Assembly: GCA_002687735.1 (NCBI GenBank)
Contig: NZBD01000002.1
Location: 6,550 to 47,168 of the forward strand
Origin: Candidatus Iainarchaeum sp.
GTDB lineage: Archaea > Iainarchaeota > Iainarchaeia > Iainarchaeales > Iainarchaeaceae
DNA: 40,619 bases
Direction of reading: 5' to 3'
Shown: piece by piece, positions 14,996 to 28,836 of the stretch
Numbering within the stretch: the first letter of the stretch is position 1
Layout of the letters: each line of letters starts with the position of its first letter
The notes under the pieces: model-generated
The model's input: the letters and a program-made list of their open reading frames with translations, nothing else
Database searches by the model: none
What the model was told of the DNA's origin: nothing
Translations under genes and position numbers: made by a program

Positions 14996-16087
14996 TTAGT
15001 CACATTTGAGGCATACTTTGCTTGTGTGTAAGAAAGACACGGCTTTTCTTGAACCAGGTTCCCCCAAATAGTCGTTGTATAATTTTTTTACTTCAGGATT
15101 ATCCATACAAATCCTCACGTTTTCTTTTGAATCGATTTTAAATAATGCTTTTCTTCTTGCTGCTCTTATTTCAGGAGTTGATATTGGCTGGCCTCCTCCG
15201 CCAATACAACCATTTGGGCAGACCATTAGTTCTATTGCGTGGTATTTTTTGAATTTTTTTTCATTACTTAGTAAATCCTTTAAATGATGCAATCCATCAA
15301 CTATTGCTACTTTGAATTTTTTCCCGGCAATTTTTACATTTGCTTCCCTGAAACCTTCCATGCCCCTCACTTCTTTAAATTCAACCCTTCCAAGATCCTG
15401 TTCGAGTTTATTTGAAACAAACCTTAACAAAGCTTCTGCTACTCCTCCGGTTGTTCCGAACAATTGCCCTGCGCCTGAAGCATCTCCTAACAAATTATCG
15501 AAATTTTCTTCTTTTACTTTTTCAAGTTCAATTCTTCTTCCTTTTAGTAATTCAGCAATTTCCTTTGTGGTTAGTACCGCATCCACGTGCGGAATATTGT
15601 TGAATTCCATTTCAGGTCTTTTTGCTTCGAGTTTTTTTACAACGCAAGGCATTACTGATACCACAAAAAGATCTTTCTGTTTGAGTTTCATTTTTTCAGC
15701 ATAATATGTTTTGATCAATGCCCCCATTGTTTGTTGCGGGGATTTTACAGTGCAGAAATGATCGACATACTGAGGAAACTGCCTTTCAATGAACAGCACT
15801 GATGCTGGGCAGCAGGATGTGAAAAGAGGCAGACATTCCCCTGTTTCAAGTCTTTTCAGAAATTCAGTCCCTTCTTCTACCGTAACAACATCTGCGGATG
15901 TTGATGTATCAAACACCTTATCAAAACCCGCTTGTTTTAGTGATCCAATAAATTGTTTTGTAAGAACAGTTCCCGGTTTGTAACCAAATTCCTCGCCGAT
16001 TGTTACCCTCAATGCAGGAGCAACCTGTGCTACAACCTGAACATTATCCTCGTCCAGTACTTTGTTTACGTCTTCTATTGTTCCCAT
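14996..16087 (-). CDS. Minimal [FeFe]-hydrogenase H-domain protein
   Basis: QVAPALRVTIGEEFG; L1 TSCCPA; KSPQQTMGALIKTYYAEK; L2 VMPCVVKKLE; GGVAEALLR; L3 VCPNGCIGGGGQP; C-term FLHT..; no N-terminal ferredoxin domain. Confidence 0.92.
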   Translation of the reverse strand: MGTIEDVNKVLDEDNVQVVAQVAPALRVTIGEEFGYKPGTVLTKQFIGSLKQAGFDKVFDTSTSADVVTVEEGTEFLKRLETGECLPLFTSCCPASVLFIERQFPQYVDHFCTVKSPQQTMGALIKTYYAEKMKLKQKDLFVVSVMPCVVKKLEAKRPEMEFNNIPHVDAVLTTKEIAELLKGRRIELEKVKEENFDNLLGDASGAGQLFGTTGGVAEALLRFVSNKLEQDLGRVEFKEVRGMEGFREANVKIAGKKFKVAIVDGLHHLKDLLSNEKKFKKYHAIELMVCPNGCIGGGGQPISTPEIRAARRKALFKIDSKENVRICMDNPEVKKLYNDYLGEPGSRKAVSFLHTSKVCLKCD

Positions 16088-20765: not shown

Positions 20766-22022
20766 TTGGTTGAAACAATAACGATTTCAAAGCCAGTATT
20801 GGCTAATGGTAGGGAGTGGGTTGATTCCCATAACCACATAAGGGGCATTAACAACAGGCTGGAATTGATTAGAAATGATCCAAGCTTGAGTGAGCATAAC
20901 AAGAATATTCTTTCAGAGTATTGCAGGAGCATGGCCAAGAAAAGTCCTGCGACAATAATCAAGAATATGCAGGTTGTCCACAAGTTTTTGAAGGATATTG
21001 GAAAGGACATGGGTGACTCAATCACAAAAGAGGATAGTGATGAGTATTACCTTAACCTAATCAATAATCCTGATTTGAAACCCTGGACGCTGAAAAAATA
21101 TTTGCTCTGCATCAGGCGTTTTTTCAGGGTTCATTATGGACTAAAAACAGGCCGTTACCCTGACCAGGTTGACCATTGGGATACAAATATTGATACAAAG
21201 CAGTATCTTGACCCCGACCTTCTCCCTACCCAGATGCAGATAAAAGATGCAATTGAATCCTGTAATAATATGGGTAATTTGCTGGAATCAAGGAACCAGC
21301 TCTTAATTGCAATGCTTAATGACTTGGGCTGCAGGATAGCGGAATTACTGGCTGTGAATGTCGGCGATATAAAGGAAATAAACCATGATGGTCTGGACTT
21401 GTTTCTGGTTAAGTTTTCCCAGAGCAAAACTTTTCCGCGAACTGTGGTTTCCCTTCTTTCCAGGCCTTACCTGAAGAAGTGTTTTGCTTTAAGGGGAATA
21501 ACCAAAGACACGATAAGCGAAAAGGCAAATGAGCCTCTTTTCCTTGACAGGAACAAAAAAAGAATGGAGTACCGTGCAGTCACCAAGTTTGTCAGCAGGG
21601 CATTTGCAAGAATCAACTACAAGTTTCCTCACTACAAGAATGTTCACTTGTTAAGGCATTGCTGGATTACAAGAGCTGGTGAATATTTCAAGTTTGCCCA
21701 GAAAAATTATTGGTGCGGGCAAAGTGGCGGTCATGTTTCCTCAATATACACCCACTTCAATTGGAAGAATGTTGTCAAGCCGTATCTCGAGATGATTGTC
21801 GGTGAAAAAAATCCGATGCTTCTGATAAAGTGCAGTGCATGCGGCTTTGAAAATTCTGGGAAGGAATTTTGTGTGAAGTGCGGCAGCAATCTGACAGAAA
21901 TTAATGCTGTCAACAAGGACAATGCTGTTCAGGTTTTCAAGAATTTTGCCCAGAACATGACGCAGGAAGAGTTCGACAAATACTTGCTGAGGCTGATAAA
22001 CAAGAACAGGGGATTCACATGA
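20766..22022 (+). CDS. Tyrosine recombinase/integrase with C-terminal zinc ribbon
   Basis: TTG start after GGAGAGGTG; catalytic GCRIAELLAV, HLLRHCWITR, GHVSSIYTHF; C-term CSACGFENSGKEFCVKCG. Confidence 0.95.
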   Translation: MVETITISKPVLANGREWVDSHNHIRGINNRLELIRNDPSLSEHNKNILSEYCRSMAKKSPATIIKNMQVVHKFLKDIGKDMGDSITKEDSDEYYLNLINNPDLKPWTLKKYLLCIRRFFRVHYGLKTGRYPDQVDHWDTNIDTKQYLDPDLLPTQMQIKDAIESCNNMGNLLESRNQLLIAMLNDLGCRIAELLAVNVGDIKEINHDGLDLFLVKFSQSKTFPRTVVSLLSRPYLKKCFALRGITKDTISEKANEPLFLDRNKKRMEYRAVTKFVSRAFARINYKFPHYKNVHLLRHCWITRAGEYFKFAQKNYWCGQSGGHVSSIYTHFNWKNVVKPYLEMIVGEKNPMLLIKCSACGFENSGKEFCVKCGSNLTEINAVNKDNAVQVFKNFAQNMTQEEFDKYLLRLINKNRGFT

Positions 22023-22355: not shown

Positions 22356-25217
22356 TTATTTTCCAGTTATGTAATTATATTGTTTGTCAATTATGAACTC
22401 ATATTCTTTTAGTAAATTTAATTTTTGAACAAATCTTATATCATAATTTTCATTTTTTGGGTTAATTAATTCTGCATATTGGTCTGGAGATTCATAAACT
22501 AATTGAGTTAAGGTTGCTACGTCTTCTAAAAAGTTGTTAGCACCATAGGGTCTAGCAAAACCGTTTCTTGGTTCAGTACCCGAATCTTCTGGCCATCTAG
22601 TCCTCATTTTACCTGGATCGCCAGATTGATTAAAATATTCTCCTGCAATTTCCTGCCAAGCAGTCTGGAATTCTGAATCTTCACTATAATACTCCGATCT
22701 AGTTTGATCTCTAATTATTCTAAATGTATATACGTGAGAAGATTCATGGGCTGTTGTCCATATGCTATTTGGTTCCACAATCGGAATTGTTAGCGACATG
22801 CCATTCCAAGAAGCAAAAGCGCCTGCAGAACTCATATCCCTCTCTACAAACTCTTCTCTTGTCAAAAAATTGATTGCTTCTATAGAACTAATAACTTTAG
22901 GAGCTAGAACACTAAGTTGCATTCTCAAAATTCTTAATCCATGTTCATCTATTTCTCCATTAATTGTGATGTGTGGGAATTCGTCTCCAAAATTTTCCAT
23001 CGAATAAGATTCATCTTCAATAACTACTAATTTTTCACTAAGCTTAATGCTTAAATTGCCATTTGATATTAGTCCTTCTGACTCATTTGCAGGCAATTGA
23101 ATAAAATCATTATAGTTTCCAAATAGTATTTTTTCCGGGTTGCTTGCTTTTCCAATTGCGTCATTACCTTGTTCATCTAAAATTCTAAAAGAGAATCGAG
23201 TGCTACTGTTTCGGTAGAATCCTTCGCCTTGATTAATATGTACTTTATTTGTTGGACTTACTTCAACAGTAATAGCTCCGTTTCTTATTGAGAGAAATTG
23301 ATATTTATCTCCAAAGTTTTTCAATAAAGAAACCTCTGGAATCAAACCCTCTGACTTTCTGCCATTTATTCGGACAAGTTTTTTTCTACCATCAAACCTT
23401 AGAAAATCATTTTCTTCAATATCAAAATAAGGGTTGCCTTCAAGAAATTTCACAGAAAAATTATTTTTTGCATTATTTATATAAATCTCGTTCTCTCCAA
23501 CAAATGAAACATAATTTTCTGTATCCTCATATTCTTTCTTTCCATCAAAATAAATGAAAGTGTTTCCTTCTCCATATGGATTGCCTTCTATACTTACTCC
23601 ATTAATTATGGCTGTTTTTCCTGAACTGACATAGAGTTTTTCATTTTCAAAACTAATTTCTCCAGTAACTTCTATTATTCCTAATTCGTTTTCAAATTCT
23701 ATGAATTCCCAGCCTTTTTTTGTTGCTGTTTCTTGTGCAACTTCGCTGAATTCTTGAGGTGCTAATATGTAACCGGGTTCGTTTAAATTTATTTTGAGTT
23801 TGATTGGCGGAGCATATCCTCCTTCGAATATGCTGTAATCTATTTTTATTTCTTTTTCGAGTGTTTCAGGCAGTTTTTTGTTTCCTAGGAGTTCGGTAAA
23901 ATTAAGGTCAATAACCAAGGTGTATGGTTGTTCCCCCCATTCGCTGTTATCGCCTTCCTCATCAACAACTGAAAGCTTAATTCCTGGTTCTGTTCTTATC
24001 CTTTGAGGAAACCCGTTTATTTCAATGTCGCCCGAATTCGGAATTGAAAAGTCTTCTATTGGCCCGATTCCTGTATAGTTGACTTCATTTGGATTAAATA
24101 GCGGTTTTTTTAGTGTTATTTTTGGTTTGTTTTTTGTCAATCCGATTTCAATTGTTTCTTCAAAAATGTTTTCTTCAGAATAAATTTCATCAAACCTTGC
24201 TTTTCTATCCCTTACTATCACTTCTTCAATCAATCTAATTTCGGGAATACTGCGTTGAGCTAATTCTATTATTGTGCCTTCTTTTGAGGCTTTAATAAAG
24301 TAAGTGCCTTCTTGAAAACCGTCTCCGTCCCAAATTATTTCCAAAGGTTTGTCTTTCTCTATTGTTTTTTGGTTTTCGTTTAGGGTTTTTGAGAAACTGC
24401 CACTATAATCAAAAACGAATACATCAATGCCTTCGATTGTTGTATCAGAAGTAACTGTTATTTTTGTTTTTTGCTTGACTGGGACAAATTCTCTTGGATA
24501 AGCAAAAATTTTTATTTCTGGTTGTGAAGAAGTACCCAGTTGCTTGGATTCACCGGAAGCAAGATATTTTTTGACAATCTCTCCAACCGATCCTCTTATT
24601 GAATTTATGATTCTTCGAAATTGTGATTCTTCGGCTTCAAAATAAATTACTCTTTCTTCTTTTTTTTCTTCCAGTTTTGCTTCTTCTGTGAATGCGCTGA
24701 CCAGTTGTTCTCCTAAAATGTTTTCAAGTTCATTGGCTTTGGCATTGTCAAGGTTGAGTTCTGAAATGTTTTCAAACTCTTTTAATAATTCTCCTTCCTG
24801 TTCAGTCGACAATGAATCTGTAAACTCCTTTGGGAGAATTATATTCACAGAACCGATATCTGAAGTGTTTGTGAATTCCATTTTAATTATTATGTTATCT
24901 TCTTTTGGAGTGAATTTCAAAATCGGGTCGTTCTTAAGAGTCTTTTTGTCTGCGTTGGTTTCAAGGTAAAAATCTTGAACTGAAGGGGCAAGGTTTTTCG
25001 GGATTATTGTAAATATTGTAAATTCCTTTGCGTTATTGAGAAATAGGTGATCTGATCGTTTTCCATCAGCAAACCTAATTTTTTTGGCTGCACTTATAGG
25101 CGAATAATTTATGGAAAAATCATGTCCTTTGCTGTTCTCGGTTTCCTGGAAAAAAATGAAGAATCCTGAAATCAAAAGCAATGCAGATATGAAAGCAACT
25201 AACAAAATATTCTTCAT
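22356..25217 (-). CDS. Large secreted protein with C-terminal HExxH putative zinc metallopeptidase
   Basis: N-terminal hydrophobic signal MKNILLVAFISALLLISGFFIFF; EIIWDGDGFQEGTYFIKA FlgD-like segment; TTAHESSHVYTFR with downstream NFLEDVATLTQ. Confidence 0.85.
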   Translation of the reverse strand: MKNILLVAFISALLLISGFFIFFQETENSKGHDFSINYSPISAAKKIRFADGKRSDHLFLNNAKEFTIFTIIPKNLAPSVQDFYLETNADKKTLKNDPILKFTPKEDNIIIKMEFTNTSDIGSVNIILPKEFTDSLSTEQEGELLKEFENISELNLDNAKANELENILGEQLVSAFTEEAKLEEKKEERVIYFEAEESQFRRIINSIRGSVGEIVKKYLASGESKQLGTSSQPEIKIFAYPREFVPVKQKTKITVTSDTTIEGIDVFVFDYSGSFSKTLNENQKTIEKDKPLEIIWDGDGFQEGTYFIKASKEGTIIELAQRSIPEIRLIEEVIVRDRKARFDEIYSEENIFEETIEIGLTKNKPKITLKKPLFNPNEVNYTGIGPIEDFSIPNSGDIEINGFPQRIRTEPGIKLSVVDEEGDNSEWGEQPYTLVIDLNFTELLGNKKLPETLEKEIKIDYSIFEGGYAPPIKLKINLNEPGYILAPQEFSEVAQETATKKGWEFIEFENELGIIEVTGEISFENEKLYVSSGKTAIINGVSIEGNPYGEGNTFIYFDGKKEYEDTENYVSFVGENEIYINNAKNNFSVKFLEGNPYFDIEENDFLRFDGRKKLVRINGRKSEGLIPEVSLLKNFGDKYQFLSIRNGAITVEVSPTNKVHINQGEGFYRNSSTRFSFRILDEQGNDAIGKASNPEKILFGNYNDFIQLPANESEGLISNGNLSIKLSEKLVVIEDESYSMENFGDEFPHITINGEIDEHGLRILRMQLSVLAPKVISSIEAINFLTREEFVERDMSSAGAFASWNGMSLTIPIVEPNSIWTTAHESSHVYTFRIIRDQTRSEYYSEDSEFQTAWQEIAGEYFNQSGDPGKMRTRWPEDSGTEPRNGFARPYGANNFLEDVATLTQLVYESPDQYAELINPKNENYDIRFVQKLNLLKEYEFIIDKQYNYITGK

Positions 25218-27060: not shown

Positions 27061-27135
27061 ACACTTTTTTCTTTCTTTGTAAAGAAAGAAAAACCTGTAC
27101 TAAAAAGAAAGAAACCCAATTAAGGTTAAAAATGG

Positions 27136-27210
27136 TGCTCCGAGGGGGATTCGAACCCCCGTCACAAGCGTGAGAAGCTTGTATCCTTGACCGGGCTAGA
27201 CGATCGGAGC
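27136..27210 (-). tRNA. tRNA-Glu(CUC)
   Basis: GCTCCGA/TCGGAGC; CAAGC-TTCTCAC-GCTTG; GGGGGTTCGAATCCCCC. Confidence 0.96.
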
Positions 27211-27391
27211 AAAGCCTTTTTCTTTCTTGTAAGAAAGAAAAACCCTTGGGAAAAAGAAAAAACCTGATTAAGGAAAAATCCTCAGAATTCCTTAAAAAAC
27301 TGCCGATAAGCGAATAAATCACTTATTTCAGTGAAAAGGTTAGTATTATATACTTTTCAAGCCCCAATATGTACGTTTTCGGGGGAAATGA

Positions 27392-27760
27392 ATGGTATTT
27401 TTTGAAGCTCTACAGGCTTTGCTCAGTTTAGACGTTTCGTTTTTTGTAAACATAATAATAGACCACATTATTTTTGTTTTTGGTATTGCTGCAGCCGCTC
27501 ATTATTTTTTTGATGGAAAGAAATTGATTTTTTGGTTTGTTTTTATCAGCGTTACTCTTTGGGCTTTAATAGATCTTGGAACTTACACTGGTTTGGTGTT
27601 CACTGGAACATTGTTTTTATTAGTTTATTATATTACTAAATTTGCGGTACTGGCTTTTGTTGAATCTGTTCCCTCTTTGAAACCTTATATTGTAGCTTTT
27701 AATGAGTTCCACTTTTTCATTATGCTAATCATTTTCCTATTTTTTGTGGGAGGTGGGTAA
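27392..27760 (+). CDS. Small membrane protein, family A copy 1
   Basis: 122 aa multi-TM; aligns with 27998-28360 (F..LQA..SLD..F......VFG.AA...F.D.K). Confidence 0.75.
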   Translation: MVFFEALQALLSLDVSFFVNIIIDHIIFVFGIAAAAHYFFDGKKLIFWFVFISVTLWALIDLGTYTGLVFTGTLFLLVYYITKFAVLAFVESVPSLKPYIVAFNEFHFFIMLIIFLFFVGGG

Positions 27761-27761
27761 A

Positions 27762-28001
27762 TTGGCTTTGTTCAAGAACTTTGTTAGGGGTTTGTACTTT
27801 GCACTCTTGCTTTTGATAATCTTGTTTGTTGGAGATTACATTTTCCCGGGAAGAGTTTACGATACAGCATTCGCATTGAGTGGTATACTAATAATTTTCA
27901 TTGCTGTTCCGCTGGATGTTATGTTTGCTTTGCATCCAAATGACGATTCAGAAGAAGAGGATTCGAAAGAAAAAGAAAAACTTGAGGGATCGCCAACATG
28001 A
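27762..28001 (+). CDS. Small membrane protein, family B copy 1
   Basis: TTG start after GGAGGTG; 2 TM plus acidic/charged tail DDSEEEDSKEKEK. Confidence 0.7.
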   Translation: MALFKNFVRGLYFALLLLIILFVGDYIFPGRVYDTAFALSGILIIFIAVPLDVMFALHPNDDSEEEDSKEKEKLEGSPT

Positions 28002-28360
28002 GCTTCCTAAATATATTACAAGCAGTGTTTTCATTAGATTTCATATTTTTGATAGACCTGATTATGAACAACCTATTCTGGGTTTTTGGTTTTATTGCTG
28101 CTGGTTACTTGTTTACAGATAAAAAAAGTTTCATTATGTTTGGCTTTGTTTATGCAGCAATAATCCTTATGACTGTTGATGTGTTTAATGTAATAGGCTT
28201 CAGCATCTACACAGCAACTGGATTAATGTTCTTGTACTTAGCCAGAATGGTAGTATTACTCTTCCTCGAAAACACAAAAAGCGGGCCACAACTTATTCCT
28301 TTGGCGTATGTTGCGGTCTTCTTTTTCACTTTAGCAATAGCTGCATGGGGGTTCTTCTAA
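27998..28360 (+). CDS. Small membrane protein, family A copy 2
   Basis: ATGA overlap with upstream gene; paralogous to 27392-27760. Confidence 0.75.
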   Translation: MSFLNILQAVFSLDFIFLIDLIMNNLFWVFGFIAAGYLFTDKKSFIMFGFVYAAIILMTVDVFNVIGFSIYTATGLMFLYLARMVVLLFLENTKSGPQLIPLAYVAVFFFTLAIAAWGFF

Positions 28361-28361
28361 A

Positions 28362-28562
28362 ATGTTCTTAAGATCGGTCATAGAGGCAATGCCCTTAGCT
28401 TTTACATTACAAATATTTTTTTTCATAGTGGACATTACAGGCAAAGTAGATTTCGGAATAGAAATTTATACACTTTCAGGATTTTTTATGCTCTGGATTT
28501 ATGCTTATTTAATGATTTTAGTTTTAAAAATCGGAAGCAAAAAAGAAGAACCAGAAAAATAA
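28362..28562 (+). CDS. Small membrane protein, family B copy 2
   Basis: 66 aa, 2 TM, charged tail SKKEEPEK; 1 nt after upstream stop. Confidence 0.7.
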   Translation: MFLRSVIEAMPLAFTLQIFFFIVDITGKVDFGIEIYTLSGFFMLWIYAYLMILVLKIGSKKEEPEK

Positions 28563-28667: not shown

Positions 28668-28740
28668 GCCGGTGTGGTTTAGCAGTTAGAACGCCTGACT
28701 CATAATCAGGAGGTCGGCGGTGCGAATCCGCCCACCGGCA
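28668..28740 (+). tRNA. tRNA-Met(CAU), elongator-like
   Basis: GCCGGTG/CACCGGC; CCTGA-CTCATAA-TCAGG; tRNA-Ile2 not formally excluded. Confidence 0.92.
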
Positions 28741-28836
28741 TAACCTTTTTCTTTTTGTTAACACAAAAAGCAAAAGCTTAACCAAAAAGAAAAATGTAGT
28801 AAGGAAAAGTTGCACCCAAAGAAAACTATTATGGTT

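Follow-up and report, generated by a model that had tools for sequence, protein, structure and literature searches.

A four-gene cassette between two tRNA genes

The window (the whole 40,619-nucleotide stretch of DNA analysed here) comes from a draft genome of 552 kb in 18 contigs that is 63% complete, and that is archaeal as judged by its split rpoB genes and archaeal-type gene content, apparently from a DPANN lineage. Between a tRNA-Glu gene and a tRNA-Met gene, it carries four small genes on the forward strand, which encode membrane proteins of two kinds in alternation and are called A1, B1, A2 and B2 in the following:

27133..27210, minus strand: tRNA-Glu(CTC), bounding the conserved cassette site on its upstream side
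27346..27353, plus strand: TATA-box-like TTATATAC, about 40 nt 5' of A1, read from the sequence
27392..27760, plus strand: A1, a 122-aa membrane protein with four transmembrane (TM) helices and a short N-terminal helix
27762..28001, plus strand: B1, 79 aa, a 2-TM protein whose C-terminal tail is acidic and rich in lysine; start taken from the family alignment
27998..28360, plus strand: A2, 120 aa, paralogue of A1
28362..28562, plus strand: B2, 66 aa, paralogue of B1, with two TM helices
28587..28610, plus strand: hairpin with an ensuing T run, resembling a terminator, 3' of B2 at the end of the four-gene unit
28668..28740, plus strand: tRNA-Met(CAT), bounding the conserved cassette site on its downstream side

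The overlapping or abutting small reading frames in A-B-A-B order reported in a first-pass annotation of this DNA are present as claimed, with a revised start for B1. The automatically predicted start at 27744 yields 85 aa and overlaps A1; the most likely start is the TTG codon at 27762, one base past the A1 stop, which gives 79 aa, fits the family N-terminus "M..FK" and is preceded at a distance of 6 nt by the ribosome-binding sequence GGAGGTG (27749-27755), itself located within the part of A1 encoding the C-terminus. The B1 stop and A2 start overlap as ATGA, and A2 and B2 are joined as TAA-A-ATG. The four genes probably constitute one operon, with TTATATAC probably acting as its single promoter; the spacing of this element to A1 is compatible with the position of about -26/-27 given for the archaeal TATA box (PMC4158304). 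Hairpins followed by a T run occur twice in the region against 1.2 expected from shuffled sequences, a weak excess when taken alone, but the hairpin distal to B2 is well placed. Inverted repeats of T and A runs (TTTTTCTTTCTT...AAAGAAAGAAAAA) also follow several tRNA genes (27062-27095, 27213-27245 and 28744-28792), and are probably tRNA terminators.

The arrangement tRNA-Glu / A-B-A-B / tRNA-Met is found at ten related loci in three families (L025-L031, L037, L038 and L124), where an eIF6-like gene adjoins the bracketed site, while most other cassettes have no tRNA gene nearby. Mobility via tRNA sites was considered and rejected, since the enrichment for tRNA neighbours stems from one inherited syntenic site. 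The tandem copy in the window occupies this conserved site and has no adjacent regulator gene.

Two families of paralogous membrane proteins

Profile-profile alignment of A1 with A2 gave a probability of 99.6% (E 1e-24), and their pairwise score exceeded those of all 1000 shuffled sequences (local z = 11), far above what random TM proteins would yield; the paralogy proposed for them from the sequence is thereby upheld. By pairwise local alignment, B1 and B2 were indistinguishable from chance, but the profiles of their subfamilies align with a probability of 95% (E 4e-8), in agreement with the relatedness suggested earlier, and a single B family model matches both (33.6 and 35.7 bits). Kinship between A and B was rejected, with a profile-profile probability below 1%.

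In a tree of A proteins (113 rows, 117 columns), the deep branches of which are weakly resolved, A1 groups with the first copies of related cassettes in a 12-row set (SH-aLRT 99) and A2 with the last copies in an 8-row set (SH-aLRT 98). In family f8, too, first copies mostly group apart from the last ones. The duplication that gave rise to A1B1 and A2B2 is therefore not recent, and the two units are old, separate paralogues. Comparisons of close relatives gave a dN much lower than dS for A as well as for B, with dN/dS of, for example, 0.25 and 0.06 for the A and B genes, respectively, in the comparison of L074 with L075, and of 0.09 for both in that of L071 with L073. This indicates that B is a real gene, and both genes are under purifying selection.

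Pairing and distribution of A and B

A model built from 48 A proteins detected about 130 copies, some of them partial, in 43 of the 93 genomes of the phylum. All copies lie within one order, with up to 9 per genome, so that the phylogenetic spread of the cassette, which the first-pass annotation had left to be checked, extends no further than this order of a single archaeal phylum. A wider search, which covered 395 genomes and extended to other archaeal phyla, added a single marginal A match (E 7.7e-4), which we take as chance and not as a homologue outside the phylum.

The 81 loci of these 43 genomes, all drafts with contig ends, comprise 37 A-B, 28 A-B-A-B, 3 A-B-A-B-A-B and 6 B-A arrangements; the remainder consists of two A-B-A loci cut by contig ends, three with A alone, and two that are frame-broken or divergent. 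Pairing is strict across about 110 A-B pairs, the six reversed loci included. Likewise, in a genome-wide search for B in eight genomes of the window's family, 36 of the 37 matches at E<1e-3 adjoin an A match. The sole exception (L128, G003:C121:29387-30827) is a B gene next to a frame-broken A and a divergent, likewise broken double-Lrp gene, which may reflect either the joint decay of a whole module or assembly errors. Evolutionary distances of A and B correlate (r 0.45), compared to 0.13 +/- 0.04 when the B genes of each genome are permuted over its paralogues (none of 1000 permutations reaching the observed value); A and B are thus co-inherited. The window's own genome contains a third A copy (L024, G000:C16:21051-21878) with B before A, which falls within the clade of the A tree characterised by B-A order.

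The view that a gene pair was duplicated with its order retained, and that each A-B forms a unit, fits well with this alternation of A and B almost without exception, and homologues outside such pairs are correspondingly scarce. The A-B pair is almost certainly the unit on which these loci are built.

Predicted structure and topology

The AlphaFold2 model of A1, computed from the A alignment, has a pLDDT of 92.1 and consists of helices at residues 2-11, 15-24, 26-39, 45-66, 73-92 and 94-119. The first TM helix is broken or kinked at residue 25, a position occupied by Asn in 93% of the A family and by His in A1. Conserved polar residues are located in or beside the TM helices (D14, N25, D61 and Y80), and K43 in the first loop. 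When the stops of L069 are read through to give a single A-linker-B chain, the model obtained has a pTM of 0.49, with pLDDT of 72-98 over the four TM helices of A and of 55-69 for B.

Lys and Arg residues occur in loops 1-2 and 3-4 of first, last and single A copies alike. On account of these positive charges, A proteins are predicted to be N-out/C-out, and since the charge bias is equal in first and last copies, A1 and A2 are expected to share the same topology; the charge counts led us to reject opposite orientations of A1 and A2 of the kind seen with small multidrug resistance (SMR) proteins. B proteins, with their basic N-terminus, are predicted to be N-in/C-in. A has short loops and most B proteins end directly after the second TM helix, so neither has a cytosolic domain. 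The charged tails noted earlier on the 2-TM proteins do exist in B1 and B2, but they are missing from most B proteins and were discarded as a key trait of the family.

Comparison with known proteins

None of the 48 A proteins matched Pfam at E<=0.1, and no match was obtained in NCBIfam, in PDB sequences (A and B profiles), or in phage and plasmid records; the A proteins also had no match in PHROGs. Foldseek comparison of the A1 model (pLDDT 92) with PDB and BFVD returned nothing at E<=10. PADLOC gave one marginal match, of one A protein to the "4TM" effector model (E 0.063), and none for the other 47 of 48. The impression of the first-pass annotation that no known family could be recognised thus stands for sequence databases as well as for experimental and viral folds. 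A weak Pfam match of a stretch of B1 to MarC (E 0.005, 16.5-16.8 bits for a cut-off of 23.9 bits) was seen in one of 56 B proteins; MarC proteins are far larger than B1, and kinship was rejected, this lone sub-threshold match being best seen as a chance pairing of TM helices. No paper turned up in a literature search on small membrane proteins of this phylum and on regulators divergent from the genes for such proteins among DPANN archaea. We consider the A-B family and its architecture to be new; its mechanism may turn out to be ordinary transport.

Several known systems bear comparison. SMR proteins (EmrE, EbrAB and others, including paired SMRs) have about 110-120 aa and four TM helices, and occur as tandem paralogues and in multiple copies, all of which they share with A. 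Unlike SMR proteins, however, A has an obligate, separate 2-TM partner and a broken TM1, and resembles them in neither sequence nor fold: the SMR family model matched 0 of 48 A proteins at E<=0.1, and no fold match to solved EmrE-type structures was obtained. Fluoride channels of the Fluc/CrcB type, of about 125 aa with four TM helices and often encoded by adjacent gene pairs, are similar to A in size, helix number and gene adjacency, but the partner of A is an unrelated 2-TM protein, and the corresponding Pfam model found no match among the 48 A proteins. Exporters of the AzlC-AzlD type are membrane transporters made of two unequal subunits, encoded beside a regulator of the Lrp family. A-B, with its two unequal subunits and Lrp-type neighbour, would work in the manner of these exporters, but A-B is much smaller and is also paired with TrmB and HTH_10 regulators, and neither AzlC nor AzlD families were matched in Pfam.

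Regulators beside single A-B units

Clustering of the neighbours of all loci and inspection of their upstream genes revealed that single A-B units are usually divergent from a gene for a one-component regulator, identified by Pfam in representatives as double HTH_AsnC/HTH_24 (Lrp type), TrmB or HTH_10. By hand count, such a regulator is directly divergent in about 30 of the 47 single units with upstream sequence; it lies further off in L086, and in L071 an HTH_10 gene is found on the same strand. Among tandem loci, only the triple cassette L036 has a regulator, a co-oriented Lrp. Altogether 32 of 113 A genes were labelled as regulator-linked, nearly all of them in single units.

Counting the regulator genes of the window's family located no more than 1.6 kb from an A gene gave 9 of 14 double-Lrp genes (0.18 expected, P about 2e-14), 4 of 8 HTH_10 genes (0.11 expected, P about 2e-6) and 7 of 50 TrmB genes (0.66 expected, P about 4e-6); these P values are too small because related genomes were treated as independent. 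Most two-unit Lrp regulators of this family accordingly adjoin an A-B unit, and in the window's own genome the sole HTH_10 gene detected (C16:22183) is divergent from the third A copy (L024). In family f1 (e.g. L034, L040, L084, L099 and L106), the Lrp protein consists of two tandem HTH_24/AsnC units in one chain of 320-380 aa.

The A tree requires 18 changes of regulator label, at least nine of which (for the split between linked and unlinked) are forced by well-supported branches, so that the association must have formed repeatedly. Regulator-linked single units are present in both the A1 and the A2 subfamilies. Palindromes in the shared divergent promoters are more frequent than in shuffled sequence (combined P 1e-5, strongest for L118, L041 and L090), and in the HTH_10 group two families share a conserved promoter block around TGTCACTAAA. 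This link of single A-B units to regulators is a new point beyond duplication of the gene pair. Regulators of the Lrp, TrmB and HTH_10 families commonly respond to small molecules, and those of the TrmB and Lrp families control non-transport genes as well. In some archaea, TrmB genes flank sugar transporter operons (PMC4158304).

Proposed function and alternatives

We favour the reading that A-B units are small, two-subunit, inducible membrane transporters, with a probability of roughly 0.45. A and B would be subunits of a 4 + 2 TM membrane complex moving a small molecule across the cell membrane, most likely outward; the divergent regulator would sense this molecule and switch on its own A-B unit, and different A-B paralogues would serve different molecules. 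The tandem A1B1 and A2B2 of the window would probably be made constitutively, and the two units may work together. Pairing, co-inheritance, selection, the recurrent regulators, the palindromes, the conserved polar residues and the break in TM1 all support this reading. On the other hand, no homologous known transporter emerged from the searches, the A-linker-B model showed no confident interface, and tandem units, including that of the window, have no adjacent regulator, the L036 triple excepted. Regulators with a local target are equally compatible with a membrane effector not involved in transport.

That A-B units are tightly linked to three unrelated families of one-component regulators could also mean that A-B is a membrane sensor or anchor which signals to the neighbouring regulator or sequesters it, the tandem copies having lost or moved theirs. 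Some bacterial membrane-bound inhibitors do act on transcription regulators. A receptor role is disfavoured by the lack of a cytosolic domain in both A and B, and the folds of Lrp, TrmB and HTH_10 are unrelated, so that a common binding surface would hardly accommodate all three; moreover, most linked regulators are divergent and not co-transcribed, an arrangement expected of a regulator and the genes it controls. We regard such a role as unlikely, and the same holds, to a similar degree, for a function of A-B as an accessory in lipid or envelope modification, for instance by flipping polyprenyl-phosphate-linked molecules or by aiding membrane homeostasis. The latter would account for the tandem cassettes of family f2 located about 85 nt after a BacA/UppP-like gene (Pfam BacA; L112, L115 and L122), for the BacA-like gene that follows the A-B unit in L099, which extends BacA adjacency to two families, and for the many f8 cassettes that follow a predicted secreted, C-terminally anchored protein with no Pfam match. 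The BacA cases are, however, perhaps just two independent associations, and most units have other neighbours.

Small, paired, multi-copy TM proteins, one of them marginally similar to a defence model, might further be a toxin or bacteriocin acting on membranes, or a defence effector, in each case with its partner. This is improbable, as 47 of 48 A proteins had no defence match, and tandem repeats of the same pair with low dN/dS better suit a housekeeping or transport role. Still less credence is given to an antiparallel, dual-topology heterodimer of the two copies after the fashion of paired SMRs: size, helix number and tandem paralogy would suit it, but the charge bias in loops 1-2 and 3-4 does not differ between first and last copies, which hence share one topology, and SMR proteins have no obligate 2-TM partner and no similarity to A in sequence or fold. 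The location of the window's cassette between tRNA genes and the multiple copies per genome initially suggest genes of a mobile or viral element, for example of holin type, with tRNA genes as integration site. This is the least plausible of all, given that the tRNA genes flank the cassette at a single syntenic site passed on by descent, that most other copies lie away from tRNA genes, that phage and plasmid records as well as PHROGs (A proteins) yielded no match, and that purifying selection and vertical paralogue clades are evident.

It is conceivable, though less likely than not, that A-B founds a hitherto undescribed class of miniature membrane machines with two subunits (4 + 2 TM, about 20 kDa per unit), which expanded into many paralogues in one order of small archaea; most single copies would be under the control of a ligand-sensing regulator of their own, and tandem duplication would have united some units into A1B1A2B2 heteromers. 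If the favoured reading of A-B as a transporter is right, a genome-reduced archaeal lineage devotes as many as about nine gene pairs in a genome to a single small-molecule membrane module that has no known relative. Regulator, operator-like palindromes and inducer would then offer a genetic handle on the compounds taken up or expelled by these uncultivated and probably host-associated cells, and A-B would be among the smallest two-subunit transporters known, and a model for duplication and specialisation of paired small membrane proteins.

Other genes near the cassettes and in the window

A small lipoprotein-like gene is found near the cassettes of L029, L030 and L037, and a membrane protein resembling ECF S-components near those of L093 (weak Pfam match), L037 and L082 (related reading frames); together, these neighbours point to a possible context of vitamin uptake. 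In the window itself, a tyrosine-recombinase-like reading frame with a C-terminal zinc ribbon (20766-22022) is located about 5 kb upstream of the cassette. The reading frame at 14996-16087, with a TSCCP motif and a cysteine-rich C-terminus, resembles, by eye, the catalytic domain of an iron-only ([FeFe]) hydrogenase, and that at 22356-25217 encodes a predicted secreted protein of 953 aa with a metalloprotease-like HESSH motif near its C-terminus.
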